Below, one piece after another: positions 7,709 to 60,258 of a DNA stretch of 64,000 bases; position 1 is the stretch's first letter, and every line of letters starts with the position of its first letter. A program made the position numbers and the translations under genes. The notes beneath the pieces were generated by a model, which was given only the letters and a program-made list of their open reading frames with translations, did no database searches and was not told where the DNA came from. The DNA is from Membranipora membranacea. Taxonomy: Eukaryota; Bryozoa; Gymnolaemata; Cheilostomatida; Membraniporidae. The stretch spans positions 3,968,001 to 4,032,000 of the forward strand of contig OU612073.1 of NCBI GenBank assembly GCA_914767715.1. The letters run 5' to 3'.

Positions 7709-7716
7709 TATAAAAG
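7709..7716 (+). promoter_or_regulatory. TATA box of BRICHOS precursor A
   Basis: TATAAAAG inside TTTCATATAAAAGCTGAACAC, a block also found upstream of precursors B and C. It stands about 100 bp before the ATG. A single GGATCATTGTATCCTGACACAG segment follows about 25 bp downstream, where transcription would start; B has this unit twice and C about five times. Confidence 0.75.
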
Positions 7717-7807: not shown

Positions 7808-10503
7808 ATGAAGGTAAGGTCTGCAGATGTTTGAAGAACAATTTCAATGTTATTAAAAACCACATCAAGTTTCTGATATATGAACTGTATCGAATAAAGT
7901 TTAATGGGATTTAAATGTTTCATTAGAAAAAAACATCATAAAAATTAAATGCATTCGATCGATTATTCGATTCGATATTCTGGATCCAGTAATAAATATC
8001 AATAGATTATTACTTTTCTATCATACAGGTTGTTTCAGCTCAGACCGTTTTCCTTGCTGCCTTATTGGCTAATGCTGCAGCTGTTCCAACTCAGACCTTA
8101 CATGAGAAAGCTGATCCCAAGGAGGTGGTTCATGATGTCATTTTGTTGGACCCAAAAGGAACGGTAGGTATTGTGTAAATCCTTCTTCGGGGACTTAAAC
8201 AACTGATGAAGGATGAATAGCCTTGTAACGCCTGGCCTGTAATTGATGATTTTCTATATTTCCATTAATATAACTCAGTTACAATGAAAATGTTTTTATA
8301 TTACAGATAGTTTCAGCTCAGACTGCTTTCCTTGCTGCCATATTGGCTTATGCTGCTGCCGTGCCCCGTGTCCCGACTCCAGCCTTATGTGAGAAACTAA
8401 AACATGAGGAGGTCGTCCATGATACCATTGTATTGAACCCTAAAGGAACGGTAAGTTTTAGCAGTTCTCTGCAATCTTTTGATAAAGGATGGAGAGAGTT
8501 TGGGCTATGTCCCACACTCCACAGATAATAGCTTTGTATAAGAACCATAAGAGGGGGTTTCATCTCTCTTTATGTTTTGAAATTTTATATATTCATATGT
8601 AAAGGTTTTGTAAAAGTATAAACTAAAACATATCAAAAATAAATTACAATAATATGTCTTTCGGGAAGAAATTACAAAATCCTTTGAATCCCCAGGCAAT
8701 AATAAGTTTTTCAATCGGTTCTGTTCTCAATTATAGGATTTCTCTAAGGCAGTAGACCTGACTTTCACTGATGGTAATGTCTGGATAATGGAAGGAACTG
8801 GTGGAGCTGTGGATATACATGACTACAATACGGTAAATCTGTAACCAAATGTACAAAATTCCAAAATTCAAAATTATGATCAACTAATAATATTCTACGC
8901 GATATCTATACACACACATATATATATATATATATATATGGATCATGCTGCTCCTAATTAATCACAATAATATGATTGTCTCGTGGCTCAAACCAGGTTC
9001 TGTATAGCCTTTGTTATTTCAGATTACATCGTGGTATGCTTGATCATAGACCTATCAATGATTTCATCCCTACACCATAATTATTAGCTTTTGGTTACTT
9101 GGTTGGCTCTAGTCAAATTTAATGTTTTTTTCAACAGGGTCTACACTTCGTTAGAGGTAACGAGACAGCTCCTTGCTATGTCTACCCAACCATGCACTCC
9201 TTCCAAGATGGCATCAAGCTTGAGGCAGTTCTGAAGGATGGGCTGAGGCAATTTGAAAATGTAGATATTGCTCAAGTTGTGCCACTCTCTGCTAATATGA
9301 TCGTTGATGCCAGCTTCGCACCAGTCGAGTCAGCTAAATACTGTGACATATACCAGTGGGCTCGCATTGATCACTATGTTATTGGTGAGTACATTTATAA
9401 TCGTTTATACATGAGTGCTAAAACTGGGTTTTGTTACTCCACAGGGGCTTTTTGTAACTTTATATATTGTAGAGAACAAATTTACCTTACCTTACATACC
9501 GCCGGAAATTTTGTTGTCTCAAAAGCCAGTATTGGTTGATTGTTCATATAAAAAAACAAAACAAAAAAAGCCTCAAGTTCAATACAGTATGGCATCCCAC
9601 ATTGCCATTCATCTGAGCAACAAGTAAAGAAAAAGTAATAATAAAAAGTTTTGAACTAGAGAACATTCCTTTATTTGCAGGTCTTCGGTTTTGTATAAAT
9701 GATAAATGCGTATGTATGTTAACTCATATCCAGTGTCCCATAACACATTTTCAAAAAGTATCTTAAAAAAATTGAAGAAATGGCTGAATCACAGTCCTGT
9801 CTTCAACCACACATATGAAGTAAAACCAGTAGTGGGTGCGCTAATTATATATTTTTACACTTCATTTGCCTTATATATGCCATTCCTGCCATGAAAGCTT
9901 CGAATCAATTGTGGGTAAAATGAAAATGAAAAAATTAAGTAAAAAACCAATAGCTATCTTTACCCATTGATCTCCAATTTATTTGTGATTAAGTGGTTTT
10001 AGAATTTTGTGAGCCTCATGGTCATTAGACAAAACAGAATGTTGTTATCAGGTAACACAAAAGCAGAAAATCTGAATCTGAAGAGAGTAATTTTCCTAAC
10101 AGAGGCTAAGTCCAAAGGAGTATTGCATTTGCCGACTTCGGGCTTTGTGGTCCCAAAGTCAGGAAATTCAGTAGTGCGGAATCTACCACCCCAAACCTAT
10201 AGCCTACTGGAGGATCCATTCAACCTTTTGTTCCACACAACACAACTCAATCGCCAATTAAACTATTATTATAAAATAATGAGTATGTCAGCCATTCCCC
10301 TGAAGTTGTGTGGTATGTATTCCGGTCACATTTCTAGTAATTAGTGGTAAAATTGTTATGTGTACATCGGCATAGCTTTCTCTATTTCAGCCCACAACGA
10401 TATGTCCAGCGAGGAAGATGCTCACATGGTCGTAAAGCGGGGAGCTCCTGGTAATGATGGTCAGCCTGGTAGTTGCACATCAAACTGTGTCTACTGCCCA
10501 TGA
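7808..10503 (+). CDS. Secreted BRICHOS-domain precursor A with C-terminal Cys-rich peptide
   Basis: Exons 7808-7813, 8029-8163, 8737-8832, 9138-9384 and 10391-10503 give 198 residues. Residues 1 to about 22 are a signal peptide (MKVVSAQTVFLAALL...). The BRICHOS domain spans about 48-162. Asp76 (in DIHDYNT) lies 16 residues before Cys92 (APCYVYP), the same spacing as the conserved Asp and first Cys of surfactant protein C precursor, and Cys148 (AKYC) is the second conserved Cys. An acidic linker then leads to Lys177-Arg178, a furin-type site, and a 20-residue tail that begins GAPGNDGQPG and ends CTSNCVYCP. In polychaete antimicrobial precursors BRICHOS acts as a chaperone for such a tail; that this tail is antimicrobial is not shown, since it is slightly acidic. 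A second version of exon 2 lies at 8307-8450. A candidate AATAAA is at 10827. B and C are paralogues. The fold assignment rests on motif spacing only. Confidence 0.85.
8307..8450 (+). CDS. Duplicate exon 2 of precursor A (alternative signal-peptide exon)
   Basis: This has an acceptor (TTATATTACAG) and a donor (GTAAGT) and encodes 48 in-frame residues starting IVSAQTAFLAAILAYAAAVP and ending NPKGT, parallel to exon 2 at 8029-8163. Both exons are phase 0 on both sides, so either alone gives an intact precursor (198 or 201 residues). Inclusion of both would place a second hydrophobic segment inside the protein. The frame is open and the splice sites are sound, which argues against decay. It adds a Cys (PALCEK) that the other exon lacks. 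Use as a mutually exclusive exon is inferred. Confidence 0.75.
8919..8940. repeat. TA microsatellite in the intron of precursor A
   Basis: About ten TA units after CACACACATA, in the intron between exons 3 and 4. Confidence 0.9.
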
Positions 10504-11840
10504 GGAGTTCATCATTAATATCATTATATCTCCTTCTGCCTTTGAATTATTGTACTTTTTCTACATTATAGAAGAATCATTCGATTGACATATAACATGA
10601 ATTTAACAGCTAATCTTATATCAGAATTACTTGTACGTTCCTTTTTACAGCAAAATGGCATGCATATATGTATGTGTATATGTTTCAAATTACATGGTTA
10701 ATAATCGGCAACTGCCAATAACCAAAATTAGCAACTATGTGTCTTGTTAAAGTTAATCCAAATCATACTATATTATCAACTTTTGCAGCTCCATGTTACA
10801 ATATGATATTTACAGGAAAATACACGAATAAAATAATATTTGCACAAATATAAAAATAGTTACTAAAATGGATCTTTGCAAAGTTAACCAAAAACCAGAA
10901 TTTTTTTACAAATAATGAAAGCTCTCACTTGGAGTTTTGGAGGATTTCGGATATCACATTTCTGCGTCAGCTCAAACAGAAACCTTCACTTTGTCATGGG
11001 CATTGTGTAGAAAACTACAATTTAGTAAACAACTGTTCTGAGCAGGGAGGGAAGGACATATCCCACCCTCAAACCTCAAAGCATTATTGTGCTTGCTTCT
11101 ATTGGTAACTACAAGATATTGTGATGCAAATATAATATCTTAGTATTATTACAGTAATAGGATGTTAAATTATATACACAGTGTAAGGTATGTGACTTTT
11201 TTTGCATCATATGGACCTCAATGGAGAATAACCTGAGCAGTTGTTGTCCAATTTAGACGTTATGAACTATCATTTGGCAGGTTTTCAATGGGTCAATGTA
11301 CATTTTGTCTTTCATGAGGGCTGACCCAAAATGTTGGTCACTTTTGGGGAAAGGGTATTTTCAGGGTGACAACATGCCTCTGTTTTCTTTGCTCGATGTG
11401 AGATAACGGCTTGATAAATTAGTTCACGCAAGACTCTCCACAAATGAAGGTACTTTCACAACTTCCTTTTTTACCATGCCTTCCTTATTTGCAGACCATT
11501 GATATGAATAAATTATAATATATATACCTCAGTGTTGCAGACACTTGTCGGATCGAGAAAGATCACGACAGTTCACTGCTGGCAGAGTTCATATGAGATT
11601 TCTTTACAATACTGAATGCAGTTTTTCGGCAGTTTGATGATTTTATTACTGAACTACACCCTGGGGCAAATGCCCCAGGCAACTGATGAATTGCAACGCC
11701 AAGTTGTAACTGAATCTTCAGAGCAAAAACCACTGTTCTTTATACTGACCTGTATAAATAGGTCGTAAAAATAGAAACAGGTGGGATGATACGTCATTAT
11801 TTTGATGGCCAACCTCCGCATTTAGATAGGGTACGTAGAT

Positions 11841-11913
11841 GGTCCAAGTGGCGTGATGGTAGCGTCGTTGCCTATTGGTATTGGGACCCGGGTTCGATTC
11901 CCAACCAGGTCCG
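11841..11913 (+). repeat. Degenerate tRNA-derived sequence (SINE head or tRNA remnant)
   Basis: It shows an A-box-like TGGCGTGATGGTAGC and a B-box GGTTCGATTCC at normal tRNA spacing. The acceptor ends (GGTCCAA and CAGGTCC) do not pair and the T stem has mismatches, so it is not a functional tRNA. Confidence 0.5.
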
Positions 11914-12691
11914 AATATTGATCAAGACCTTATCTTTGTGATTAATAGTGTATCAACTAATAACTCATAATGTCTATGTCACATGTCTATGGTTGTGACA
12001 TACCCCAGGGGAAACATCCGCTTATTCCCAATGCCGATTGAAGGCAATCACCCTGGAAGTTTGAGAGGCCATAACTTCCTCAATATTTGGATTCTAAAGC
12101 TGAAAATCGCTCACATGATAGAATAAAATATGGAGAATAAGATGTGATACAAAAGAGCAGCCTCAAACAAAGTCTTTAACAAGCTTTGTTTATAGGGGGG
12201 GGGGGGGGGCTATTTTCCATCCATTCACTAGTCGTGACGAGTCGTGTAATGCCAAAAGATTTGCTGTGCATAAAATTGAAAGAAACCAAGGTGAATGCAA
12301 ACTTAAAATAAATAATTTAATGAGAAGAATATAAAGAATTGTCCGTGCTTATGCAAAATTAGCCAATCATGTAAAGAATCAAGCAAATAGTAGTCTGAGA
12401 AATTCTGTTCAGCTGTTCAGTCTGTTCAGCCTGTTCAGCAATTTACAGTTACCCGCTAAAAGCATTTCATTTTTCAACCCTCTGTCAAGGTTGAATCAAC
12501 TCCTCACTAGCCTTAGAAACAGAGTTGATTCAAAGGGAAATTGCCGGCTGGGATGAGGCATGCAACTTATAGTTCATGTGGTGAAATGAATGAATGATTC
12601 TTAGCAGTCCAAGCACTAGCAGAACAAACGGCCACAGGCAGTTCCTAGTGTTCCATTTCATCACACTATCCTTCATAAGGTTGGTTGGTCT

Positions 12692-12733
12692 GACCAATGA
12701 ACTTCCTCTCCCTCAAGAGGGAGTTCATTGGTC
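12692..12733. repeat. Short inverted repeat (hairpin)
   Basis: GACCAATGAACT is inverted as AGTTCATTGGTC, and part of the interior (CTCT/AGAG) also pairs. No T-run follows. Its function is unknown; it could be the fused ends of a small DNA transposon. Confidence 0.6.
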
Positions 12734-13960
12734 TGAGCTAGTATGCTAAGACAGGCTGCTACTATGTCTGGCAATGGTCCTATTCAGTCACACCAAAAGG
12801 TATGTTTTTCCATCTTGACAAATCTCCAAAAAGACTGATCGCTGCAACTGAAGTAGTCTTCCATTAGTAATTGAGTATATGTTACTCCTTGGTTGCTAAT
12901 GATTGTGACTAAGGTAAGGTATTTTTGCTGCAAACCTCTGTGTGATTATGAGCAGCTGGCTATGTAAGGGTGTGCAGTACCTTAGTCAACCTTAACAGCA
13001 ACGTTTATCGTTGTCATTGAAGGTGGAAGGTTTGGGCAGAATCTCAATCTCGTTTGTTGTCAGCTTCCAACAATTATAGCGATCATACAATTGTGTATTC
13101 ATGTTAAGTCTAGTCACTTATGAGTAAAGGGTATATGTACCCATCGTCCCCAGGACCACTCTAAATTTCTCATAATCAATTCTTTGACAGTCTTTCATTA
13201 GCATGGCATGCCTGCCAGCTTGTAACATAGCCATGCGAATGGCCTGATAAATACAATCAGGTGGGGACGTTAGCTCGGTGAAAAGCCGAGGGGTTCTGGC
13301 AGGTACTATTGCATAAGTGTTGTTCTTTTTTCTAGCCTACTGTTGATGACCATCATATGACTGTTGTAAGTAAACTTTGTTTTTTTATTATTAATGGCAA
13401 TGTTTAACACTTGTCTTGAATTCATTACAGTTATTTTTGCACTTCTCACTTCTATTCACTCGCGGTGAAATAAAAATCACCATGGTGGCAAAGTCGAGTT
13501 CTCATTTTACTTTATTTTCTTTCATGCTCACACTACTCTCCCTGTATTATCGGTAAGTTATCAGGTGGCAAACCTACACATGAGCTGCTAGGAGTATGTG
13601 ATCAGCAATAAGCAGCTCGGGACCTTGACAGTCTAGCCTCAATCACTGTTGAAGGATACAATGTGTATACCCTACCCTACCCTGGTCTCACTAGCTTATT
13701 TTTTAGAAAGTTGTCTTCCCACAGTGTAAAAGAAGGCAACTCACTGGCTTTTATTTGGGTAATCAAGTGATGTGAATGTTATAGTGATCAGTGACAAAAG
13801 TATCAAAGTCTGTAGAACTCTTATGCTAACAATCATGAGACCAGCTACACCTTTCAAAGTTAGCAGTGAAGCTACCCTGCTGTTGTATTTTTTCAAGCAA
13901 CTGTATAAGAAATATAAATCACAAACCATATCTGTATTCATTTAAAATACATTCACACAG

Positions 13961-16409
13961 GAAAAAGGAGTCATGTGTGAGATAATAGGTCGTGAGATCG
14001 CTGGATGTGAGCATGATTATGCTAAGGTTCCACCGCCTGCTGCCATCGTACCACCACCTAAGGAGCAGCCAGCAACATCTACGCCAGCAGCACAACCCTG
14101 TATCAGTTCTGTCTTGTCAGATTCCAGGACAACATCTGATTACTGTATGTCATTTCTGGAAAAAATAGACAAAATTACACTTTTAAGAATGAGATTGATG
14201 TGTTTAGTGATTCACTTGCAAGGACAGTCAGCAATACATATCTTGAAGCAAGGAGTTGCCCAGTCTTTATTAATAAGCTCCTAGAGTGTTTGTCTGACAA
14301 AAAAGAGAACACAACTGGCAACAGGAAAATTGTATCATTAGATTTAGCATTTTTATTGGCGGTTTTATATGCCATCTATCAGTTCAATAATTTTTTTAGC
14401 TTGGCGGCCAACGGATGAGGAGGTGGATGACATATCATTCTCCCTCCAGCAGACTCAGCTCGACGAGTTCAATGGGAGCTTAGCTCATGTCGTTTTTAAC
14501 GAAAAACTGGAAGAGCTAATAAAGCTAAAGAAATGCAGTTTATGTGGAGAGCGCATGTCTGCCACTCCACGAGAGGATGGCTCAGCACTGGTCGTGAGCT
14601 ACCGCTGCATATGCGATGGCTCTGATCGGTGGGAAAGCCAGCCTCGAGTGGGTGGTAAGTTTGTGGGAAATGTCCTTACGGTGACATCAACTTTCATGAG
14701 GCAGGTCTCATCATGTTAATCTTGTTTTTAATGATCTCTTGTGATTCCTAGCTCCCATAAATGTTTGATCCAAGAACATTAAACTTTATTATCTAAATTT
14801 AGCAGAATTTCATTCCTGAAAAATGCATATAAAACATTGAGATGTGTAAATATGAGGCGATGTTGCCTATACATTGATGTCTTGCGGATAATAAGTCCAT
14901 AAGACGATCAATATCTCTTAATTACAGTTGGTCAACCTACAATGTTGTACAAGGCTTACTAGATTCGTTTGGAGTTGCACCTGTATCGTCAGAGACTTTC
15001 TACAGGTTCCAGGCACAGTTTATGATTCCAACTGTAGACAGGATGTACAGTGAGCAGGAACAGGAGATACTGAAAAATATGAAAGAGAGAGGTAAGGCAT
15101 TAACCAGTAACAAAATAAATTATTGTTTGAAGTATAAATCTCCCTTGGACGTATTTGCAGTATATATATATATACTACACTGTCGATTCATTTGGAACAA
15201 CGTTCCATATAACAAAGCAAGCTCTTCACTCTTGCAATGGAAACCATGTCTTATTTAATCACTCATTAATTCTAATAATTTCTAATAACTATTTCTTAGA
15301 TGAACGTGTAGTTGTGACAGGTGATGGTCGATTCGACTCACCCGGACCTTCGGCCAGATACTGCCACTATCTGTTCGTAGACTATGTAAGTAGAGCAGCC
15401 TTTGCTGGTCATGAGAGCATTGATTCCAACCAAGAATGAAGGCGATTACCAACAGTCAGCAGCGCTTGTTTGTACCAGGCTTATCGATATACTCTAACAT
15501 CTTCACTGCACCTAAGAAGAGAAATAACAACCAAAACATTTATATTTTAAACTATTAATAATTCAATCTAAATTGTATATGCAGGAAACATGAAAAGTGT
15601 GTAAAAGTATAGTAACACAGAGCAGCACAGTTGGAAGCGCAACTGCCGCTGAGAAAGCCGGTTTCATCGAGGGCTTGGAGGAGATCACCTCCGCAGGTGT
15701 CGAAGTAGGCTGTGTTGCCACTGATGGGCACACAGGTAAAATAACACTACACATGTGATTCATTCAATGGAAAAGGGATATATACATTGTTAGCTTATGA
15801 GTAGTTAATTGTGAAATTTTATGGATTTTCCATGAAAAATTGGTTTGTAGATCCACACCGAACACAAAGCGACCCATATAATAACGATGATAATAATTTG
15901 CTATCATTTGTTCTTCATAGGAATAGGTGCCTACACAAGAACGGTCCATCCAGACAAGAACCACCAACTAGATGCGTGACACGTATGCAAGGGTTTCGTA
16001 AAGAAACTCATTGCTGGTGCCACAAATGAGGTAAGAACTTAGGTCAATATAAATAACTTTCATGCATTTTCCTACTGGGAGAAAGGTCTTATATAGAAGC
16101 TGTCATAGCATATTTTGATGCAAGCTCATGCCAAGTGGAATCAAAATTCAGGTCGTGTCTTGCCATGAGAATAGAGATAAATACAGATTTATTTCAGATG
16201 TATATATTGTTGGTTTTGTAGAACAAGAAGAAACTCCTCCCCTGGATCAAACACATTACCCACCACATGTGGTATACCGCTTCAAACTGTGGTGGAGACC
16301 CGGACCTGCTAGTTCAGATTTTTGACTCTTGCCGGTTTCATGTGGTGAACAAGCATGAGTTTTAGGGGTATGATACTATCAAACGGTGCCTACACGACCC
16401 CATGTCCAG
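13961..16409 (+). pseudogene. Broken transposase-like gene (possibly Kolobok-related)
   Basis: Exon-like pieces lie at 13961-14284, about 14180-14655, 14928-15091, 15300-15385, 15621-15735, 15921-16030 and 16222-16409. Recognisable stretches include CSLCGERMSA (zinc-knuckle-like), TGDGRFDSPGPSARYCHY, AEKAGFIEGLEE, VATDGHTGIGAY and LLPWIKHITHHMWY. These resemble a family of transposon-derived animal proteins with a GDGR-DSPG catalytic-type motif; the Kolobok link is from memory. Damage: a TGA at 15977-15979 where the family has Trp before a His, a TAG at 16363-16365, and frame breaks near 14180 and at the 14655/14928 junction. The coding part stops at a splice donor (16410), directly followed by nephrocystin-4-derived DNA, so the 3' end is gone. 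The gene is dead unless alternative splicing rescues it. Confidence 0.7.
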
Positions 16410-17890
16410 GTAAGAGAAATTTTACTAATTAGAGGCGGGTACATGTTATGTACTCCATCTAAACCGAGTCTAACAATCAGAGATACACAAGTTAATGGTG
16501 TTGTCTCGATGTCAGTGAGGCTGAGACGTTCATCTGTGCATACTCTTTGAAACATTTTATCTGCGTTATGATAGGACACATCCTCTAATGGATTACGTTA
16601 GCCCCTCTACTCAGTATCTTTCCGACAAACTTGAAATGGGCAGCTTGCTCAGAATTTATAGCAGGCAACGTTTATAAGAAGTAGGACATTTCATATTACA
16701 AACTTTCTTATATGTATTGTAAGTATAGCTGCAATCTTGCATCAATCAATCAATCTTCCGTCGTCATTCAAATATGTCCTTCAGACTTTATTACCACAAG
16801 TCATCACACCTCGTATATTTTCTACTTTACAGATTTATGCCATCGCTGAATCAGGGAACAGCTGAAATTATGATATTTATAAACGATGATGAAGATAAGA
16901 ATGAGGAAACCTTCTGTGTCAAGGTCAACTATATCTCAGAGAACAACGATGATTAATTAGCCTAAGCTTCACATCCAAACTGATCATGTGATATATTATC
17001 ACATTATAACTCTGAACAATATAGCTTGAGTATCACCAGAAAGAATTTAGATTTGGCGACCTGATGTCAAATTTATTTATTGGGGGCATGTAGATGTTAG
17101 GTTATCATACTAAATTGACTCTAAGATACACATGCTAAAAGTGTGGTCTTGATGCCTGTGTGGTCACTGCCTCTGTAGCTCTGGTAGATAGAGGATCGTT
17201 TCGTAGTGTTACCTTAACTATGTGTGTCAGCAAATCAATTCTGATAGTCCAATAATCAATTTTGACAATTTATGTGAATTTTTCAAGTTTTGAATCTTAT
17301 TTATGCAGTTAGATGATATTGTTAAGTTGTTACTATAGGGTACATTAAGGCTATGATGCTTTGATTTTTTATTCCGTCCTGGGATTTGTAAGTTTTCAGT
17401 AATTTCCATAGGTTTTTATGTCTGTAGCAGTTGCAATTTGATGCAAGATATGGTCAGTTTAAATAACCTTACAATTTATAAATTTAGTTTACATATAGCA
17501 AGTTAAAATTAAACTACAGACAGAAATAGTGAGTTGTAGAGTCGCCTCCCTACAAACCACAGTGATGACGCCACGACTCCTTTACTATAGCTGTTTAGCC
17601 ACTGTGTTTCAGAGGGTGAGCTAATGGCAACATTGAAAATGCTGCATCCCATCCACACAGTAAAGTTTAGCAGCATTCAGTTATGTTAGAACTTTTAGAC
17701 TGTCTGATATATCAGAATACTGAATGCATATCAAACCCTCTCCTTGAATTAACTATAACATAACATATGAGAATCAGAAGTAGCTGGGGGAGAAGAAAAG
17801 TGACTCATCATGACCGCTTCATTTGTCACATTGATATAATTCCACTTCCCTGCATGGGTAATGTTTGGCAATGGAATGCCACAAAAGGTA
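16410..17890 (+). pseudogene. Duplicated 3' end of nephrocystin-4 (last intron part, last exon, downstream flank)
   Basis: This matches about 3560-5380. The intron part starts with GGCGGGTACATGTTA. The last exon copy at 16833-16956 keeps its acceptor, open frame and stop, and differs from the parent at 2 of 40 residues (Ala to Ser near the start, Asp to Asn near the end). By eye the exon differs at about 7 of 124 bases, while the flanking intron differs at roughly 17 per 100. No other nephrocystin-4 exon precedes it here, so alone it is a fragment; use as a distant alternative last exon is possible but unsupported. Confidence 0.85.
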
Positions 17891-18106
17891 AAACCCTTTC
17901 ATGTACAAAGGTTTAATGTTGTTGTCATGTATTTCAGATTCAGACTCCCTAAGATAGGTCAATGTCCTCTTATTCGACATGTTGTAGGTTATGCACAGCT
18001 GCATAGGTCATATGAAAAGGCTCTGTAAACTACTCATTTGCTCGAAAACCGATTTTTTTAGAGGGTTAATTTCAAGTTGTCTTCCTTTTGTCAAAGTAAA
18101 GACAAT

Positions 18107-19316
18107 CCTGAACAAAAACTTGATTCAATGATGTTGTGTCATTTTAGGGAGAAAATGAGGCAGAAAACGCTGTTTTTGTCAAAGCAGATGGAGGAGTCAA
18201 ATTAAATGCAAGAAATTTCAAACCAGGTGGAATGCATACTTAGAGATTGAGTTCATCGTAAAATTTGATTTTCTTTGATATATGACTAGTCTAAACTGAC
18301 TTTTTACGTCATGCCATACAACGCATTTTTTATTGTGAAGCCGTGAAAATATGTGAAATTTCAATCATTAATTCAGAACAGATCATAGGCTCGAAACAAA
18401 ATTAATTATGATTTTCCCTTAGAGTACACTTCAAATGTCATACATTGTGACTTTCAACAAATTAGCTTGCTTATTGCGAAAACAGTGGACTCTCGAATAC
18501 ACCTGATATTTTTCGCAACTTTTGCATAACGTCAAATGTGCTGTTCAAATGACCATTATTGTGGCCAAACAAAGTTTTTTTGGAAGTTCTCACACACGAA
18601 GCCGCTTTTATTACCCATGGTGCACACAGGAAATGCCAACAGCTATTTCACTGCATCTTTGTTTTTCTTGAATTTAACGCAAAAGAATGGCCAAAAACAC
18701 CTCAAAAGTCCCAAAAAATAGCTGTTTTTTGGCATTCTTTTGCGTTAAATTCAAGAAAAACGAAGATGCAGGGAAAAAGTCTTTTGGCATTTCCTGTGTG
18801 CTCCATGGCTAATGAAAGCGGCTTCGTATGTGAGAACTTTCAAAAAAACTTTGTTTGGCCACAATAATGGTCATTTGGACAGCACATTTGATGTTATGCA
18901 AAAGTTGCAAAAAATTTTGGCTGTATTCGAGAGTCCACTGTTTTGGCAATATGCAAGCTAATTTGTTGAAAGTTAATAGGTATGGCATTTGAAGTGTACT
19001 CTAAAGGAAAATCATAATTAATTTTGTTTCGAGCCTATGATCTGTTCTGAATTAATGATTGAAATTTCACATATTTTCACGGCTTCACAAAAAAAAATGC
19101 ATTGTATGGCGTGACGTAAAAAGTCAGTTTAGACTAGTCATATATCAAAGAAAATCAAATTTTACGATGAACGCAATCTCTAAGTATGCATTCCACCTGG
19201 TTTGAAATTAATTGCATTTAATTTGACTCCTCCATCTGCTTTGACAAAAACAGCGTTTTCTGCCTCATTTCCTCCCTAAAATGACACAACGTCATTGAAT
19301 CAAGTTTTTGTTCAGG
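18107..19316. mobile_element. Foldback element: two arms of about 590 bp around a 25-bp spacer
   Basis: The left arm 18107-18698 is almost the exact reverse complement of the right arm 18724-19316. The ends read CCTGAACAAAAACTTGATTC and its inverse. The arms carry matching landmarks, for example GAGCCTATGATCTGTTCTGA with its inverse, and GGCCACAATAATGGTCATTT. Open frames inside are by-products of the symmetry. No target-site duplication is evident. A transcript would form a long double-stranded RNA. A decayed partial relative lies near 33030-33200. Confidence 0.85.
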
Positions 19317-19504
19317 TATTCATTTTCAGTAGCTTGGCAGCTTTCCAACGGTATATGATATGTTGATATTCGGATCGGTCTTTGACATTACCTTACACTT
19401 TCTTTTATCAGAATCTTCTTAATTGACAACTGTCATATTCCTATTGGCTGGGGGATGAAAGCTTTCACATTTTCAGTCAGTTGCATGCAGCTTGCTAGTG
19501 CACT

Positions 19505-19750
19505 GATCTTTCTGAATTTGGGTCACAGCCTGTGAAAAATACCACTGAACTATATCTGAATCTTAGCGCGGTGGTGATTTGTTCACCAAAACTGTCGGGG
19601 TACTATGTTCCCCAATCCTTTTATAACACAACTTATGTTTTCATTACCAATCAACTCTGAGCTGTATATCTCTATGATTCAAACATATAAAATATACTCA
19701 ATCTCACACCATTCGTATTGTTGTTATATAATTAGGGAGAACAAAAATGC
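19505..19750 (-). repeat. Inverted copy of part of the last nephrocystin-4 intron
   Basis: The reverse complement reads TCTCCCTAATTATATAAC, then TCAGAGTTGATTGGTAATG, CATAAGTTGTGTTATAAAA, CAAATCACCACCGC and GATATAGTTCAGTGGTAT. All of these occur in the same order at about 3980-4180. No exon is included. Confidence 0.8.
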
Positions 19751-20193
19751 AGGATTTTATCATCAGGTATTCTATTTTTCAATATGCAAACCTTTAGTCA
19801 GGATTGATTGTTTGTGTCACAATATATCACACTTTGGTCTTATGGTGGTTACACTATAAACTTTCATTCTTACGTTTTCTACAAATATTTATTGTATTCA
19901 TACTTGTTCTTGCACACATAGTATATTGTAGCATTTAGCTTAAAGCATAATATGTTTGAAATGAAATGGTATTTGGGCTAGCTCTATACTTAGTTGGGAA
20001 TGAGTGATGCTTTACTCACAAAAGTTTGCACTATCTATCAATGTTGAAAATCAACAGTAATTCTTTTGAAAAGCAAAAAAATATCCATAATATCGGTGAG
20101 GCATACAACACCATTTAAATGTTTCTATTGAATGACAATAAACAAATCAAAGGATTGTTTATTCCAAGGAGGCCATTCAACTCTGATACCTTA

Positions 20194-22470
20194 TTATCCA
20201 CAGAATAAACAGAACCCTCTGCAATCTCGCTTTGCAAACTCAGAGCTCCTCTTTACCATAGTGTGGCTATCTTCATCGTTGGAGATGTCATTGTGGGCTA
20301 CAATATAGACAGCGCTTTACTGATGTACACATGATGGTGATGATTGTTTATGAAGGTTTATGAGTAATCTAGGTCTAATTCTTATTAAATCCAAATTCTT
20401 GTGATCATATAATAAACAGTTCTATCAATAATGGGGTCATGCTTGGATAATTCATTGCAAAGGTTGCCCTTTGATGTCGCCCTATGTAAAACTTCCCTCT
20501 ACAGAGTATGCAATATAAGTTATTTTACAATTGTGGTAATAAAAATATTATTTCAGCGTTGTAAATTATCAGGTATAAAATGTTAAAACAGTATTATTAA
20601 CCCATACCAGTATATATATTGTAGGATCAACTTGCGGATTATAGACTTGTCGTAGACACAGCTCGGCGGGCTAATTTTTGTTTTGTTGGGCTGCAGCGAT
20701 AAGATAAGATAAGATAAAGTAAGTAGAAAATGAGATCATGTATACTCACAGATAATGTAGTGATCAATGTGAGCCCACTGATACATGTTACAGTATTTAG
20801 CTGACTCGTCTGGTGCGAAGCTGGCATCACTTATCATGTTAGCAGAGAGTGGCACAACCTGAGCAATATCTACGTTCTCAAAGATCCTCATACCATCCTT
20901 CAGTGCTGCCTGAAGCTTGATGCCATCTTGGAATGAGTGATACGTTGGGTAGACATAACAAGGAGCTGTTTCGTTAGCTCTAACGAAATGTAGACCCTGT
21001 TGAAAAATCGTTGAAAAAAACTCAAATTGTATTTTAAAAAACCTAAAAGAACATCAGTAGCTGCAAGCTGTAAGATTATGGTGAGAGATTCTTTATACAT
21101 AGTTCATACCTTATTACCTTCGTATAATCTGGAGTATGTTAGACTTATTAAAAAAATTTAAAAACCAGATGTCTTATCATCCCGAAGCATGTGCGGCGAA
21201 ATATCTGTGCAAGTTTGCTCTCTGTTTGCAGGCAGGTCGGAGCACACCTGGGGGCCAACCAAACCCCAGTATTCGATGGACCGCAGTGGGATTCGCACCA
21301 ACGATATTCAACATTTGTATGCTGAAGGACCGGCGCTCTAACCAACTGAGCCACCTCCTACTCCATCAATCGTATTTTCATTATAATTAATTTATTGACT
21401 GCCACATACATACTTTATATATATAACTTATATATAAATGAATACCAGCAAGAATAATATCGCCAAGTAAAAAATTTCATCTTATTTTTTAACATTGGAT
21501 AACAACATTGCATATAGTGGATTTTGCCATCGCTGTTGAGTACTTACCGTATTGTAGTCATGTATGTCCACATGTCCTCCACTTGATTCCATTATCCAGA
21601 TATTATCATCATTAAATATCATATCTACTGCTTTAGAAAAATCCTTGAAAAACACAAAGGATACAACAGAAATTGATATTGCCTGGTGACACAAAAGATT
21701 GTGCCAACTCTTTGTCAAAAATCTTATCATTTTATTTATGTATATTTACTGCAAACTTTCAATAATCCTCTACAAATAAAGGAATGAACAATAATGATAA
21801 TGAAAATAATAATAATAACAATAAAACAAGGGTACGTCATCCTTTATCAGCTGCTTTAGTCATAAAAGAACAATTTATAATAAAAACTTACCGTTCCTTT
21901 TGGGCTCAATAGAATGGTATCATGAACCACCTCCTGAGGGTAGGGTTTCTCATGTATGGTTTGAGTTGGAACAGCTGCAGCATAAGTCAATATGGCAGCA
22001 AGGAAGACGGTCTGAGGAGAAACTACCTGTGCAGTATAAACATAATAATAACCGATTGATATTCATAAATTAAATATAAATAATAATAATAATAAAGTTT
22101 ATTTATGAAACGCTTAATAAAATTGTTTAAAAACAGTGATTTCTAAGCGTTGTACATGTGATAAAAGATTGAAATAGAAACATATACTATGAAATAAGCC
22201 TGTGGCTGGTAAAATTAATAAAATTGATTAAAATTATTAATGAGATGAGAAAATATGATGAAAGATAAGATAATTAAAACCTACAAGTGGCAAATAAGTA
22301 AAATAAGTATAAATAAAATGCTGCAATAACCCATTTGACCACTTTAAATTTTTTTTCATGATTTTTTGGTAAGAAAACGATCCATATAAACTTCATGCAT
22401 CTGAAATTGAATTCGATTTTTAATAGAATATTGATGCTGTCCATCAACCATCTGCAGACCCTACCTTCAT
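20194..22470 (-). CDS. Secreted BRICHOS-domain precursor B with C-terminal Cys-rich peptide
   Basis: Exons on the minus strand: 22465-22470, 21892-22026, 21548-21643, 20750-20996, 20194-20297; 195 residues. The signal peptide, BRICHOS Asp76, Cys92 and Cys148 and the Lys177-Arg178 site are as in precursor A. The exon 4/5 junction yields Ser162 where A and C have Ala. The tail is SSEFAKRDCRGFCLFCG, with a second Lys-Arg (184-185), so a 10-residue product DCRGFCLFCG is possible. Exon 3 encodes the same 32 residues as in precursor C. The exon 3 to 4 intron carries a SINE that C lacks. A TATA box lies at 22572-22579 and an AATAAA at 20158-20163. The frame is intact throughout. It is likely co-regulated with C, whose promoter is nearly the same. 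Activity of the peptide is unknown. Confidence 0.86.
21150..21358 (-). mobile_element. tRNA-derived SINE in an intron of precursor B
   Basis: On the minus strand it starts GGAGGTGGCTCAGTTGGTTA (A box), with a B-box-like GGTGCGAATCCC about 45 bp later, then an unrelated body and an A/T-rich tail ending near TTTAAATTTTTTTAATAAG. The matching intron of precursor C (28147-28464) lacks it and is about 230 bp shorter, so it was inserted after the duplication. The SINE family was not recognised. Confidence 0.75.
22075..22170. repeat. AATAAT-rich dispersed-repeat-like stretch in intron 1 of precursor B
   Basis: TAATAATAATAATAAAG is followed by TTTATTTATGAAACGCTTAA and an ACGCTTA/TAAGCGT inverted pair. 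It is absent from intron 1 of precursor C. It resembles short non-autonomous elements of marine invertebrates but was not identified. Confidence 0.4.
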
Positions 22471-22571
22471 TTTGAAGCTGAAGCTGTGATTTATTGTCTT
22501 CTCTTTGTTTCTGTCTGCTGTGTCAGAATACAATGATCAGGATACAATGATCAGTAATGGCTAGTGTTCAG

Positions 22572-22579
22572 CTTTTATA
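22572..22579 (-). promoter_or_regulatory. TATA box of BRICHOS precursor B
   Basis: On the minus strand it reads TATAAAAG within TTTCATATAAAAGCTGAACAC. Downstream the presumed start region holds two copies of a GATCATTGTATCCT-like unit before CTGACACAGCAGACAG. Confidence 0.75.
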
Positions 22580-24277
22580 TGAAATGTGTGACCTTGCAGT
22601 CTTGTTTTGAATATGTTGAAGCATAGCAGTTGTTGATTGGTGTTTTGACAGCAACATGCATGAGGAATTTATGATTAATTATAAACAAGGAAATAGTGAC
22701 CTTAGAATGCTGTCACCGAAACCACAAACACTGCACACATAATATTGCAACCTCTAATGGTCTGTGGTTTTGGGTGAGATGCTGCCAAACTACAACAAAG
22801 TGATTGAAATTGAATTTGTTTGCTGTCCAGAAAAATGCTTAATCCAGTTAGGTTTTGGCTCTTTGAAATATAAATCATCTGATTTCCCTTTTTGAAACTC
22901 AAGAGATTATAGTCATTATATACTATAGAGTGTAGGGTATAGAGCTTATTATCACTCAAATCTCAAGACCTAGGATAGGTTAGGTAAGGTTTATTATTAC
23001 AATCCATGTACAAACAGGTGATAAAATTGGATTTGTACATGGAAATTTGAAATTTGAACTCTGTTGGGAGCAGACAGGTAGTATGGAGAAAATTAATAAC
23101 TTTAAACGCTTTTGTGTCCTGCTCTTTGGTGGGCGATGGATGGCATGTAAGCAAGAGGATTCCTTTGCACATTTAAAAACAACACGACTAAAAAGACGTT
23201 ATATTGTCAAAAAACAGTTTTAAACATCTTGGAAATAAAATCACAGAGGAGGCAGCTCTAAAAATTCAAGTCTTTCAGCATAATCCATGTCTGGCTTGAT
23301 TATTTTAGTGGCTGATTACTGTATATGTTCCAACTTGAGCTTTGGTGTGGGATAACAAATTGGAAAATTACAGGGGATGCATAGGATAAAACAGAACATA
23401 TAATCGTACAATAGTACAATCAGTAGAGCAAAGATTGCTTGATAGCTGGAGGTTTGCAGGTGTTGCCTGTATACATGGGACCCGGCCAAATTTGTGAGCA
23501 ATTCTTTTTTTTTATTGTATTCTGCTATAAACAAACATAGAAAATAAAGAGTAATAAATGTTCAAAAGAGAGTAAATAAAATCATGGGTCAGCCAGATAG
23601 TCTGTGACTAGAGTGGCGGCCAACCCTCAAACTAATAACAAAAAACACCAAACAATCATCATGAAAAGCCCAGACAAGACATGCCCACCGTACCCGCTAT
23701 CCACCACAAGACCAGAGACACCCCACCAGCCGAACTGTGAGATTGCACCCTGGTCCTGCCTAAACTCCGAAAAGGTACTTGTTGAACGAGGCTATGCCAT
23801 TGCTCAACAAAGATCTCTCTCTTCGCTTGTTGTTGGTTTTAATGTTGGATGTAGTGTTGTATTCATGGTTTGGTTTCATATTTTAAATATTTTGAATTGA
23901 GTATGATTTTAGTAGAAGTTTTAAAGTTCTGTATATAAAAAGCATTTGCAATGGCATGATTTATTAGGCTTTTAAAATGCACATGGAAAGTTATGTTGGT
24001 GTCTAGCTCATGTCCTAAAAATTTGGTGTGGTTCCATTTATACTTTTAAAATAGAGTTCCTGAATCTGAGCTTGTAATCTTCAGGGTTATAAATGTTTAT
24101 AATTACCGCTGAGTGTACAAATTTTTGAATGAAAATCTCCGAGATAAGATAAGGCATCAGCAAACACGATTGGGATAGTTTTGTCACGCTGCAATCCTGC
24201 ACAGTACATGAGGAGCGACACGATCATTTATTGCTGAGGTGCCCAAATGCGAACTTGTAGCAGAAAGTGATCAGTGA

Positions 24278-24387
24278 AATGATCTCCTACAGTTCAATGA
24301 GAGTTGACTTGAGATGTACGCTAAGGTAATGAGAGTTGACTTGAGATGTACGCTAAGGAGACCAGAGTAATCTGACTCAGGTCAGTT
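24278..24387 (+). pseudogene. Fragment of nephrocystin-4 exon (donor side), copy 1
   Basis: AATGATCTCCTACAGTTCAA and CTTGAGATGTACGCTAAGGA, then GACTCAGGTCAGTT, match the end of exon 3247-3400 and its donor. This copy has an internal tandem duplication of about 35 bp (GAGAGTTGACTTGAGATGTA twice) and reads as a remnant. Confidence 0.85.
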
Positions 24388-25013
24388 GAACTTCAACTTC
24401 GGTAGGGTATAGCGTACGGTTTTTTAAAACCAAAGTCAATAATACTTTATTCCAATGCTGCTTGTTATTCATGCGCAGGTGCTGATCATAAAAAATGCTG
24501 CACTGGATGCACATGATGCCAGAGTGAAATCATACTGATAAGATGTGAAAATGTTTATCTGTGAAATGAAATGGCAGTCAGAAATTCTTTGTAAAACAAG
24601 ATTTATCAATGTTAGAGGCTTGTAGTTTGGAGTTTAATCGATCTAAAGAAAAACAAAATGTTCCTGAAATCTGTATGTTTGTTTCAGCTGCTGCCAACTT
24701 TGGTTAACCGCAAAGACTGAACAAGATTTGAAGCCGATTTATACGTTTTTGAAGGGTTCTTGTGGAGTTGATTCACATGGGAAGCTTGTTAAGATATACT
24801 TTTGAGTGCCAAATTTAGCTTTTTAAATAAAACAAGCTTATTATGTTACCCAAATGTCCGTACAAATCATGGCAACAAGAACCCTGCACAAAAACATGAC
24901 TCAAAACCACAGTCTGTTAGATGGCGCAATATTATGTGTGCAGTCCTTGCAGTGACCACATTCTCAGGTCACTATTAAAAAACCGTACGCTATACCCTAC
25001 CGAAGTTGAAGTT

Positions 25014-25124
25014 CAACTGACCTGGGTCAGATTACTCTGGTCTCCCTAGCGTACATTTCAAGTCAACTCTCATTGCCTCAGCGTACATCTCAAGTCAACT
25101 TTCATTGAACTGTAGGAGATCATT
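25014..25124 (-). pseudogene. Fragment of nephrocystin-4 exon, copy 2 (inverted)
   Basis: This is the reverse complement of the same exon end, including the internal duplication seen in copy 1, so it derives from copy 1 or its immediate ancestor. Confidence 0.8.
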
Positions 25125-26302
25125 TCACTGATCACTTTCTGCTACAAGTTCGCATTTGCGCACCTCAGCAATAAATGATCGTGTCGCTCCTAATGTACTG
25201 TGCAGGATTACAGCGTGACAAAACTAACCCAATCATGTTTGCTGATGCCTTATCTTATCATTGAGATTTTCATTCAAAAATTTGTACACTCAGCCGTAAT
25301 TGTAAACATTTATAACCCTGAAGATTACAAGCTCAGATTCAGGAACTCTATTTTAAAAGTATAAATGGAACCACACCAAAATCTTAGGACTTGAGCGAGA
25401 CACCAACATAAATTTCCATGTGCATTTTAAAAGCCTAATAAATCATGCCATTGCAAATGCTTTTTATATACAGAACTTTTTAAATAAAACAAGCTTATTA
25501 TGTTACTCAAATGTCCGTACGAATCATGGCAACAAGAATTCTGCAAAAACACTACTTTCTATCCCTTCAAATTTTGTTCGGTCAGAATTTGCATGTTGCA
25601 CAGGAAAAAAAGTTAATTGAAAAGTTTGTTTTGAATTTGTTGAAGCATTGAGATTGTTGCTGCCGGTTATTGACAGCAACATGCATGATGGTTAATGGAA
25701 TTTATGATTAATTATAAACGAGGAAATAGTGACCTTAGAATGTGGTCACTGCAAGGACTGCACACATAATATTGCGCCATCTGACAGTCTGCGGTTTTTT
25801 GTTATGTGTTTTTGCAGGGTTCTTGTTTGGGACATTTGGGTAACGTAATAAGCTTGTTTTATTTAAAAAGCTAAATTTGGCACTCAAAAGTATATCTTAA
25901 CAAGCTTCCCATGTGAATCAACGCCACAAGAACCCTTTAAAAACATCGTTTAAATGGGCTTCAAATCTTGTTCAGTCTTTGCGGTTAACCAAAGTTGGCA
26001 GCAGCTGAAACAAACATACAGATTTCAGGAACATTTTGTTTTTCTTTAGATCGATTAAACTCCAAACTACAAGCCTCTAACATTGATACATTTTGTTTAA
26101 CAAAGAATTTCTGACTGCAATTTCATTTCACAGATAAACATTTTCACATCTTATCAGTATGATTTCACTCAGGCATCATGTGCATCCAGGGCAGTATTTT
26201 CTATGATCAGCACCTGCGCATGAATAACGTGCAGCATTGGAATAAAGTATTATTGACTTTGGTTTTAAAAAACTGTACGCTATACCCCATCGAAGTTAAA
26301 GT

Positions 26303-26384
26303 TCAATTGACCTGGGTCCGATTACTCTGGTCTCCCTAGCGTACATTTCAAGTCTGCTCTCATTGAACTGTAGCAGATCATTTC
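26303..26384 (-). pseudogene. Fragment of nephrocystin-4 exon, copy 3 (inverted)
   Basis: This is the same exon end in inverted orientation but without the internal tandem duplication, so it represents an earlier state of the captured piece. Confidence 0.8.
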
Positions 26385-27287
26385 ACTGATCACTTTCTGC
26401 TACAAGTTCGCATTTGGGCACCTCAGCAATAAATGATCGTGTCGCTCCTCATTTACTGTGCAGGATTACAGCGTGACAGAACTAACCCAATCATGTTTGC
26501 TGATGCCTTATCTTATCATGGAGATTTTCATTCAAAAATTTGTACACTCAGCTGTAATTGCCCAGAAACTTGGCTGTTGACACTGCTAGGACAAAAGGCT
26601 TCCGGTAAGCAATTGCCAAGAAATTATGTAGGCAGCAAATTTTTGACCGGGTCCAATGTATACAGGCAACACCTGCAAACCTTAAGCTATCAAGCAATCT
26701 TAGTCCTACTGATTTTCCCTTTCAAGGTGTCGTGTGAGGACTTTATATCTTTTGACAATTGCCCTGCTTAAAATGCAGCGACGTATTTTTCCTGCAACTT
26801 CTGACACCACCAAAGATTTTAACTTGTCTGAAAACCTAAAGTGACATGTCTCCTAATATTTGAGAATTAACAGACAGTTACGGAAATAGTCCTGATTTGC
26901 CATAGGAATTCGGTATATTTACTGTTTCTGCAGGTCTCGAGATTTGAGTTATTATAATACTCTATACCCTATACTCTATAGCAAAAGTAAGGAGATCAGA
27001 TCATTTATTTTTCAAAACCAAGGAGTAAGCATTTTTCTGGACAGCAAACAAATTCAATTTCGATCACTTTGTTGTAGTTTGGCAGCATCTCACCAAAAAC
27101 CACAGACCGTAAGAGGTTGCAATATTATGCGTGCAGTGTTTGTGGCTTCGGTGACAGCATTCTAAGGTCACTATTTCTTTGTTTATTATTAATCATAAAT
27201 TTCTCATGCATGTTGCTGTCAAAACGCCAATCAACAACTGCTATGCTTCAACATATTCAAAACAAGACAGCAAGGTCACACATTTCA

Positions 27288-27295
27288 TATAAAAG
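27288..27295 (+). promoter_or_regulatory. TATA box of BRICHOS precursor C
   Basis: TATAAAAG in the same context as in A and B (TTTCATATAAAAGCTGAACAC). Upstream, both B and C share a GGTCACTATTTC and ATTAATCATAAATT block, a likely common regulatory region. Confidence 0.75.
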
Positions 27296-27310
27296 CTGAA
27301 CACTAGCCGG

Positions 27311-27393
27311 TCCTGATAATATTGTATCCTGATAATATTGTATCCTGATAACATTGTATCCTGATCATTGTATCCTGATCATTGTATCCTGAC
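27311..27393 (+). repeat. Tandem repeat at the presumed transcription start of precursor C
   Basis: There are about five units of TCCTGATAATATTGTA or the shorter TCCTGATCATTGTA between the TATA box and CTGACACAGCAGACAG. Precursor A has one and B has two. The unit carries a TGATCA palindrome in its short form. Confidence 0.85.
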
Positions 27394-27444
27394 ACAGCAG
27401 ACAGACACAGAGGGGAGACAAAAAATCACATCCTCAGCTTCAAA

Positions 27445-29274
27445 ATGAAGGTAGGGCCTGCATATGTTTGAAGAACAGTGTTGATATTCTATTAAAAATC
27501 AAATTCACTTTCAGATAAATAAACGATATTGAAATGTTTCTCGACAAACAAATCATAAAGTGTAAGCCGCTCAAGTAAGATCTGGGTACGTTTTACCATC
27601 TAAATATATTGTCATATTCAATCCAGTAATAAACATCAAAGGTGTTAATTACTTTTTTATACAACAGGTTGTTTCAGCTCAGATTGTATTCCTTGCTGCC
27701 ATACTGACTTATGCTGCAGCTGTTCCAACTCAAACCATACATGAGAAACCCTACCCTGAGGAGGTCGTTCATGATACCATTCTATTGAGCCCAAAAGGAA
27801 CGGTAAGCTTTTATTATAAATTGTTCTTATATGACTAAAGCAGCTGATAAAGGATGACGTACCCTTGTTTTATTGTTATCATTATTATTTTCATTATCAC
27901 TATTGTTCATTCCTTTATTTGTAGAGGATTATTGAAAGTTTGCAGTAAATATACATAAATAAAATGATAAGATTTTTGACAAAGAGTTGGCACAATCTTT
28001 TGTGTCACCAGGCAATAACAATTTCTGTTGTATCCTTTGTGTTTTTCAAGGATTTTTCTAAAGCAGTAGATATGATATTTAATGATGATAATATCTGGAT
28101 AATGGAATCAAGTGGAGGACATGTGGACATACATGACTACAATACGGTAAGTACTCAACAGTGATGGCAAAATCCACTATATGCAATGTTGTTATCCAAT
28201 GAAATAATATGTTATCCAATGAATTAATTATCCAATCGATTAATATGAAATTTTATAAATTTTATACTTGGTGATATTATTCTTGTTGGTAATTATTTAT
28301 ATATGTATATAATGTATTGTTTCACAAGATTATAAGAATGTAATAAGGTATGCTCTATGCATAATTAATAACTAACCCATAATCTTGCAGCTTGCAGCTA
28401 CTGATGTTCTTTTAGTACTTTTAAAATACATTTTCAGTTTTAAATTTCAACGATTTTTCAACAGGGTCTACATTTTGTTAGAGCTAACGAGACAGCTCCT
28501 TGTTATGTCTACCCAACGTATCACTCATTCCAAGATGGCATCAAGCTTCAGGCAGCACTGAAGGATGGTATGAGGATCTTTGAGAACGTAGATATTGCTC
28601 AGGTGGTGCCACTCTCTGCTAATATGATCGTTGATGCCAGCTTCGCGCCAGCTGAGTCAGCTAAATACTGTGACAGATACCAGTGGGCTCGCATTGATCA
28701 CTATATCATTGGTGAGTGTATTTATAATATTTTCTACTAACTTTACCTTAGCTTATCGCTGCAGCCCAACAAAACAAAAATTAGCACGCCGAGCTCAGCC
28801 TGAGCTGTGTCTACGACAAGTCTATAATCCGCAAGTTGATACTAAAATATATATACTGGTATGGGTTAATAATACTGTTTTAACATTTTATACTTTATGA
28901 TTTATAACGCAGATTTAATATTTTTATTACCACATCTGTAAAATTACTTATCTTGCAAACTCTGTTAAGAGGGAAGTTTTACATAGGGCAACATCGAAAG
29001 GCAACCATTGCAAAGTATTATCCAAGCATGACCCCATTATTGATAGAACTGTTTATTATATGATCACAAGAATTTGGATTTAATAAGAATTAGACCTAGA
29101 TTACTCATAAACCTTCTCAAACAATCATCACCATCATGTGTACATCAGTAAAGCGCTGTCTATATTGTAGCCCACAATGACATCCCCAACGATGAAGATA
29201 GCCACACTATGGTAAAGAGGAGTTCCGAGCTTGCAGGGCGATATTGCCATGTGTTCTGTCTAATCTGTCCATGA
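27445..29274 (+). CDS. Secreted BRICHOS-domain precursor C with C-terminal Cys-rich peptide
   Basis: Exons 27445-27450, 27668-27802, 28051-28146, 28465-28711 and 29171-29274; 195 residues. The plan is that of A and B: signal peptide to about residue 22, BRICHOS domain with Asp76, Cys92 and Cys148, acidic linker, Lys177-Arg178. The tail is SSELAGRYCHVFCLICP, again ending Cys-x3-Cys-x2-Cys-Pro. It differs from B at about 10 of the first 178 residues but at 7 of the 17 tail residues. TATA box at 27288, start-site repeat at 27311-27393, AATAAA at 29310. A decayed second terminal exon lies 0.45 kb further on. Expected product: a secreted or granule-stored short disulfide- or metal-binding peptide released at Lys-Arg; that function is inferred from the layout of polychaete precursors. 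Confidence 0.87.
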
Positions 29275-29631
29275 TAAGGTATCAGAGTCAAATGGCCTCC
29301 TTGAAATCAAATAAAATTTGTTTACTGTCATTCGATAGAAACATTTAAATGGTGTTGTATGCCTCACCGATATTATGGATATTTTTTTCATTTTTAAATA
29401 TAATTACTGTTGATTTTCAGCATTGATAGATAATACAAGCTTTTGTGAGTGAAGTATCGACCCGAACTAAGTAGAGCTAGCCCAAATACCATTTCATTTC
29501 AAACATATTATGTTTTTGGCTCAATGCTACAATATACTATGAGTGCAAGAATAAGTATGAATAAAATAAATATTTTGTAGAAAACGTAAAAATAAAAATT
29601 TATAGAGTAACCACCATAAGACCAAAGTGTG

Positions 29632-60084: not shown

Positions 60085-60258
60085 CTTATCTGTAACAATA
60101 ATCGAAAATAGAAATTTTAAAGTTTTGGCTGAAATTGTGAATCTGTACGCTGTGTTTTGATTGTTTGTTTATATCCCTACCTTTTTAAAAATATAAAATT
60201 ATTCAAAAAAATTCTGAAATTGAAAAATTAAGAATAAGATGAGTAACTGATGTCATAC

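Follow-up and report, generated by a model that had tools for sequence, protein, structure and literature searches.

Three five-exon genes and their locus

We analysed a 64-kb stretch of the Membranipora membranacea genome (C9:3968001-4032000; the assembly comprises 18 contigs with 339,339,785 bases; 'the window' below means this full stretch), in which an earlier note had described three intact five-exon genes for BRICHOS precursors of 195-198 residues. Models rebuilt from the DNA bore out this description of the genes. Gene A (7808-10503, plus strand), gene B (20194-22470, minus strand) and gene C (27445-29274, plus strand) each consist of five exons, with GT-AG at every junction and spliced frames that are open throughout. 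The encoded proteins have 198, 195 and 195 residues respectively. The first four exons measure 6, 135, 96 and 247 bases in all three genes, and the last exon 113 bases in A and 104 bases in B and C. We read A-C, with a probability of approximately 50% for this reading as a whole, as paralogous secreted BRICHOS-type precursors that would release small defence peptides.

The precursor plan proposed in the earlier note was recovered in all three products. Each starts with a hydrophobic N-terminus (MK[VI]VS[AP]Q[TI].FLAA, taken by eye as MKVVS[AP]Q[TI]VFLAA[LI]L..AAA in the test of family membership), which is signal-peptide-like and would provide the N-terminal signal peptide or membrane helix of a BRICHOS precursor. 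Behind the BRICHOS-like domain lie an acidic linker, a Lys-Arg pair, invariant and identically placed in the three products, and a C-terminal tail ending C-x3-C-x2-C-[PG] (CTSNCVYCP in A, CRGFCLFCG in B and CHVFCLICP in C). The complete tails after Lys-Arg are GAPGNDGQPGSCTSNCVYCP (A), SSEFAKRDCRGFCLFCG (B) and SSELAGRYCHVFCLICP (C), with computed net side-chain charges of -1, +1 and 0 respectively, so that both the near neutrality and the fixed spacing of the three cysteine residues were confirmed. We rejected the possibility that the tails are translation artefacts, because splice sites, frame and promoter block are concordant in the three genes.

The promoter block was seen in the aligned upstream regions, where a conserved segment ahead of A, B and C contains an identical CATATAAAAGCTGAACAC with the TATA box (Table 1). 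At the other end of the genes, B and C have an AATAAA 33 and 38 bases respectively from where the stop codon starts, and in gene A the first AATAAA within the 500 bases examined past the stop is at 326. Exon 2 of gene A is tandemly duplicated, with splice sites on both copies and either of them in frame, and the sequence suggests that exon 2a, exon 2b or both could be spliced in. Behind gene C lies a decayed fourth tail exon, in which the linker and Lys-Arg are readable, the first two cysteine residues are kept and the third is displaced (x4 versus x2); an AATAAA lies close to its end. No AG was present where the acceptor of C would align, this being the one upstream place inspected, and on this ground and that of the displaced third cysteine we rejected the exon as a functional alternative end. 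Genes B and C are carried on the arms of an inverted duplication. Its core (23923-26560) holds two inverted block pairs, with identities of 96% and 90%, and a direct pair with 86%, and we interpret it as a recent palindrome-like rearrangement.

Table 1 Positions in the window of the parts of genes A, B and C and of associated features
Feature	Position	Strand	Remarks
Gene A, TATA box	7709-7714	+	99 bases before ATG; aligned upstream regions
Gene A, exon 1	7808-7813	+	ATG AAG; rebuilt model
Gene A, exon 2a	8029-8163	+	Signal peptide (predicted) and start of pro-region
Gene A, exon 2b	8307-8450	+	Alternative signal-peptide exon (predicted), in frame, additional Cys (ALCEK)
Gene A, exon 3	8737-8832	+	DIHDYNT at end (conserved Asp)
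Gene A, exon 4	9138-9384	+	Bulk of BRICHOS-like domain, two conserved Cys; followed by phase-1 intron
Gene A, exon 5	10391-10503	+	Acidic linker, KR 10435-10440, tail 10441-10500, stop
Gene B, TATA block	22579	-	Same block as in A; 109 bases before ATG
Gene B, exon 1	22465-22470	-	ATG AAG
Gene B, exon 2	21892-22026	-	Signal peptide (predicted)
Gene B, exon 3	21548-21643	-
Gene B, exon 4	20750-20996	-	BRICHOS-like domain
Gene B, exon 5	20194-20297	-	Acidic linker, KR 20248-20253, tail 20197-20247 (internal second KR), stop
Gene C, TATA block	27288	+	Same block as in A; 157 bases before ATG
Gene C, exon 1	27445-27450	+	ATG AAG
Gene C, exon 2	27668-27802	+	Signal peptide (predicted)
Gene C, exon 3	28051-28146	+
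Gene C, exon 4	28465-28711	+	BRICHOS-like domain
Gene C, exon 5	29171-29274	+	Acidic linker, KR 29215-29220, tail 29221-29271, stop
Decayed fourth tail exon, behind C	29734-29817	+	Frame continues to 29850
Inverted duplication, arms carrying B and C	19827-29632		Five inverted block pairs, 79-96% identical

Relatives of the genes and probable BRICHOS membership

A six-frame search of the genome with exon 4 of C gave six scored candidates, all of which matched: A, B and C themselves and three further genes, D, E and F. The family has at least three members besides A-C. For D (C10, L004) exon 1 was not located; exons 3 and 4 are 96 and 250 bases long, and the protein ends SLKAR-GYCGICLCLCVWC (L004 796-920, minus strand). 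Its tail of 13 residues has no charged residue (net charge 0) and contains five cysteine residues in mirror spacing around the central one (C-x2-C-x-C-x-C-x2-C; gaps 2,1,1,2). E (C9, L005; 244 residues) has an N-terminal hydrophobic helix and a tail starting KR-DRACVTACIRGCVCGFGYCACAQACATVCVG, and F (L006, C9:15612823-15616056; partly spliced) has a tail exon starting KR-DSACVTGCIRGCVCGFGYCACAQACATICVG and an N-terminal exon that resembles that of E. Both tails contain eight cysteine residues with mirror gaps of 3,3,1,4,1,3,3 (noted for E at L005 975-1153, minus strand) and have net charges of +2 (E) and +1 (F). From their sequences E and F look membrane-anchored, and their tails are likely candidates for four-disulfide extended hairpin peptides.

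No further copy was detected by tblastn (E<=0.5) in seven fetched flanking stretches of the window, D and E/F. Outside this genome we found nine exon-sized relatives of exon 4 (P0001-P0009), all without a tail; P0004 is 99% identical to exon 4 of D, and P0008 resembles that of E. A search of one protein collection with the tail exon gave no homologue, and pattern scans of genome contigs (24 matches) and viral contigs (8 matches) confirmed no relative. An N-glycosylation sequon, NET, is present at residue 87 (exon 4) of A, B and C, just ahead of the first conserved cysteine; sequons also occur in D (NGT, residue 75 of the partial model) and in P0001-P0003 (NES, NHT and NES respectively), and E, P0005 and P0007 have none there.

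The hallmark of the BRICHOS domain is two conserved cysteine residues and one aspartate (PMC6265681). A-C carry this hallmark, with the aspartate of IHDY in exon 3 and two cysteine residues in exon 4 (Cys92 and Cys148 in A and C); the same residues are found in D, and E has QDY and the two cysteine residues. The strongest argument for homology is the gene structure. In alvinellacin the introns are of phase 0 save the last, which is of phase 1 and precedes the peptide exon (PMC4002450). The intron phases are 0,0,0,1 in A, B and C and, counted from exon 2, 0,0,1 in D and E, and the cysteine peptide is always behind the phase-1 intron (A-E). A-C follow the alvinellacin rule, although we found four introns compared with the five of alvinellacin (PMC4002450).

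AlphaFold2 modelling of exon 4 alone predicted strands (E) and helices (H) in the order E2-5 E13-17 H22-33 E45-49 H63-67 E72-80, with a mean pLDDT (predicted local distance difference test) of 77.4. The BRICHOS fold comprises a sheet of strands 1-5, an extra strand 4' and two helices, and the order in the model is consistent with strands 3, 4, 4' and 5 of BRI2 together with the two helices (PMC9714404). The first helix presumably has the same place in BRI2. The exon-4 models cover part of the domain, exon 3 with the expected first strands being outside them, and P0006 was left out of the alignment behind the second model. Among Pfam families, BRICHOS was the only one matched by D, at 12.7 bits (E 0.15), which is below the PF04089 cut-off of 25 bits. 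A ten-sequence family profile (A-E with P0001, P0002, P0003, P0005 and P0008; omitting P0004 as a near copy of D, the short P0006, P0007 and P0009, and F) aligned IHDYNTGL...CYVYP with VHDFNKKL...CYVIP of human ITM2B, and one of 100 shuffles scored equally high.

The searches with profiles and folds did not by themselves assign A-C to BRICHOS. The PF04089 profile, which the earlier note had proposed as a check, found no match in A-C, and A, B, C and E had no Pfam match at E<=10 in a search run with no annelid BRICHOS precursor as a positive control. Foldseek and VIA-align with the two exon-4 models, and thus with part of the domain, returned no BRICHOS chain, and similarity to human BRICHOS sequences was weak or none. 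A whole-genome BRICHOS scan gave no match in any genome, control genomes included. The missing Pfam and fold matches and the weak similarity to human sequences favour the alternative that the domain is a lineage-specific pro-domain of similar precursor plan and not BRICHOS. However, the Asp/Cys/Cys residues in register, the strand order, the phase-1 last intron and the sub-threshold match of D are all concordant against it, and we consider this alternative very unlikely. The earlier assignment of a BRICHOS domain was supported by the conserved residues, gene structure, exon-4 strand order and match of D, but not by the Pfam and fold searches. Taken together, BRICHOS homology of A-C appears highly likely, although not proved.

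Other database matches were examined and rejected. Matches of C and the family profile in the PDB to designed PPR and Tako8 repeat proteins had no single significant repeat, the sum over repeats having inflated the score, and a match of the same queries to endoglucanase had an E of 0.6-0.9. Pieces of exon 4 matched DpnI_C and Dynein_IC2 with a best E of 0.056, in one and two of 14 members respectively.

Divergence and possible function of the tails

Exon 4 of B and A is 94% and 89% identical at the protein level to that of C respectively. In comparisons with A, DNA identity is 82-89% for exons 2-4, 45-62% for introns and 60-64% for exon 5, which is hardly better kept than the introns. Between B and C, introns 2 (98%) and 4 (93%) are as similar as the exons, suggesting recent duplication rather than constraint. 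Among the final nine tail residues, only the three cysteine residues are common to A, B and C (1/84 for that choice of positions).

For B-C, the non-synonymous (dN) and synonymous (dS) divergences are 0.034 and 0.264 in exon 4, and 0.323 and 0.414 in the tail. Non-synonymous codons numbered five of 82 in exon 4 and seven of 17 in the tail for this pair (Fisher p 0.0006), 9/82 and 13/17 for A-C, and 12/82 and 14/17 for A-B. Thus the tail residues diverge faster than exon 4 while the three cysteine residues stay. The contrast of non-synonymous with synonymous changes reached significance in two pairs, A-C (p 0.009) and A-B (p 0.003), and fell short of it in B-C (p 0.11). Tail dS is also high in the two comparisons that involve A (1.74 and 0.80). 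For these two reasons, relaxed constraint may be the cause of divergence for the residues between the cysteines.

How would such precursors work? The signal peptide would direct the precursor into the secretory pathway where, by analogy, the BRICHOS-like domain with its aspartate and cysteine pair would hold the cysteine tail until it is folded and oxidised. A furin-type convertase would then cleave after Lys-Arg, yielding a peptide of 17-20 residues or, should B be cut at its second Lys-Arg, of 10 residues. Since a free peptide with three cysteine residues cannot pair all of them internally, the active oxidised form would be either a small ring that leaves one thiol free or a disulfide-linked dimer; we regard the covalent dimer as doubtful.

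Release of the tail from the precursor is probable, as judged from the cleavage site. A putative convertase site, KR, immediately precedes the C-terminal peptide in A, B, C, E and F; it is invariant in A-C and readable in the decayed exon, and the acidic linker ahead of it suits a pro-region. All of this speaks against the alternative that the tail is unreleased, or its release secondary, with the cysteine residues acting on the precursor as an inter-precursor link or a CxxC redox site. On the other hand, all three tails contain a CxxC pair (CVYC, CLFC and CLIC), their odd number of cysteine residues favours inter-chain links, and exon 2b of A raises the cysteine count by one from the five of the exon-2a form. 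D is the exception among the cleavage sites, with a single-basic LKAR and no KR, which fits retention of the tail and counts against our reading. On balance, we consider it unlikely that the tails act on the precursor.

The released peptides might serve in host defence or keep surface bacteria in check. Other BRICHOS peptides have this role in marine worms, and by analogy we advance it here tentatively, at slightly less than even odds. Small neutral peptides released at dibasic sites and built on a fixed cysteine frame are common among signalling peptides, and the tail charges of -1 to +1 would suit a hormone or neuropeptide. However, most non-cysteine tail residues have changed among neighbouring paralogues, which is unusual for a receptor ligand, and the cysteine spacing of E and F is hairpin-peptide-like; a signalling role in place of defence seems to us quite unlikely. 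The tail could also be an extracellular thiolate ligand for metal or sulfide, through C-x3-C-x2-C or, in D, C-x2-C-x-C-x-C-x2-C. The CX3CX2C spacing is that of the [4Fe-4S] motif of radical SAM enzymes, and D has its five cysteine residues within 13 uncharged residues. The likeness is of spacing only, however, as the residues around the cysteines are not conserved, and the secretory route is oxidising. We consider such a ligand highly improbable.

Elsewhere in the window, a 392-residue open frame (stop to stop; 58990-60168, minus strand) has a signal-peptide-like methionine start, a glutamine-rich repeat body and the end VCTCFACLSIL. It had no Pfam match at E<=0.1, and its cysteine-rich end recalls the A-C tails with a different spacing. 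Two open frames at 53747-56128 (plus strand) match transaldolase PF00923 (E 6.9e-19 and 7.6e-16) and are probably exons of one gene.

Comparison with known BRICHOS precursors

The precursors of the polychaete antimicrobial peptides alvinellacin, capitellacin and arenicin have a signal peptide, a BRICHOS pro-region, a dibasic site and a C-terminal cysteine peptide (PMC4002450, PMC7761999, PMC6780910), a plan to which that of A-C corresponds. The peptides themselves differ. Those of alvinellacin and arenicin-1 have a charge of +6, and the A-C tails, with charges of -1 to +1, are not cationic. The polychaete peptides have two or four cysteine residues and a closed hairpin, compared with three cysteine residues in A-C (PMC4002450, PMC7761999, PMC6780910), where gaps of 3,2 should not allow two bridges to nest in a single-chain hairpin. 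Judged from spacing, E and F would fit such a hairpin, and D is symmetric about its central cysteine. In their middle turn of four residues and their outer x3 gaps, E and F match the 3,4,3 of the capitellacin ladder (Cys5-Cys18, Cys9-Cys14; PMC7761999).

Since C-x3-C corresponds to one strand of the alvinellacin or capitellacin ladder, two chains in antiparallel arrangement could rebuild the ladder. Within a chain, the A-C tails have neither the length nor the number of cysteine residues for a closed nested hairpin. The tails could then be 'half hairpins', each chain contributing one C-x3-C strand and the ladder forming by antiparallel pairing (C1-C2', C2-C1'). Such tails would be an inter-chain counterpart of the BRICHOS hairpin peptides already described. 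The precursor chaperone would have to govern dimer formation as well, mixed pairs between A, B and C would be possible, and D would be the extreme form, with five symmetric cysteine residues all in register. We offer this arrangement as speculation and do not expect it to hold.

The human BRICHOS proteins BRI2/ITM2B, proSP-C and OAF share with A-C the aspartate ending strand 2 and the cysteine pair between strand 4 and helix 2, and also the convertase site and C-terminal cysteine peptide, except that the proSP-C peptide is N-terminal (PMC9714404). The BRI2 peptide has one disulfide and the C-terminal peptide of OAF four, in nested hairpin order. A-C match neither; the number of cysteine residues in E and F could match the four nested disulfides of OAF (PMC9714404). 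Membrane-anchored BRICHOS precursors are already known (PMC10745061, PMC9410094).

The earlier note had suggested an undescribed class of peptides. A neutral three-cysteine tail of 17-20 residues was not found in the papers examined, supplements and subscription journals being outside the search. The suggestion is nevertheless too strong, because HfBRI-75 and HfBRI-91 of the annelid Heteromastus filiformis are BRICHOS-related C-terminal peptides and, like the A-C tails, cysteine-rich without a pronounced cationic property (PMC10745061). They differ from the short A-C tails in having 75 and 91 residues and 11 cysteine residues (PMC10745061).

Some alvinellacin paralogues are in tandem, which is similar to the neighbourhood of A-C, and the alvinellacin peptide is monomorphic in A. 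pompejana while the BRICHOS part diversifies (PMC5431198); in A-C this pattern is reversed, with the tail diversifying and exon 4 better kept. A varying tail with a kept chaperone part makes arms-race ideas on BRICHOS peptides testable. If our reading is true, the cargo of BRICHOS pro-domains widens from cationic closed hairpins to short neutral peptides with three or five cysteine residues, and one genome allows the likely eight-cysteine hairpins of E and F to be compared with the open three-cysteine tails of A-C. A, B and C would escape any mining that relies only on cationic charge or only on the Pfam BRICHOS profile. As the cationic and closed-hairpin features are absent, we file A-C as BRICHOS-type precursors and not as BRICHOS antimicrobial peptides; in their working they resemble the annelid BRICHOS peptide precursors.

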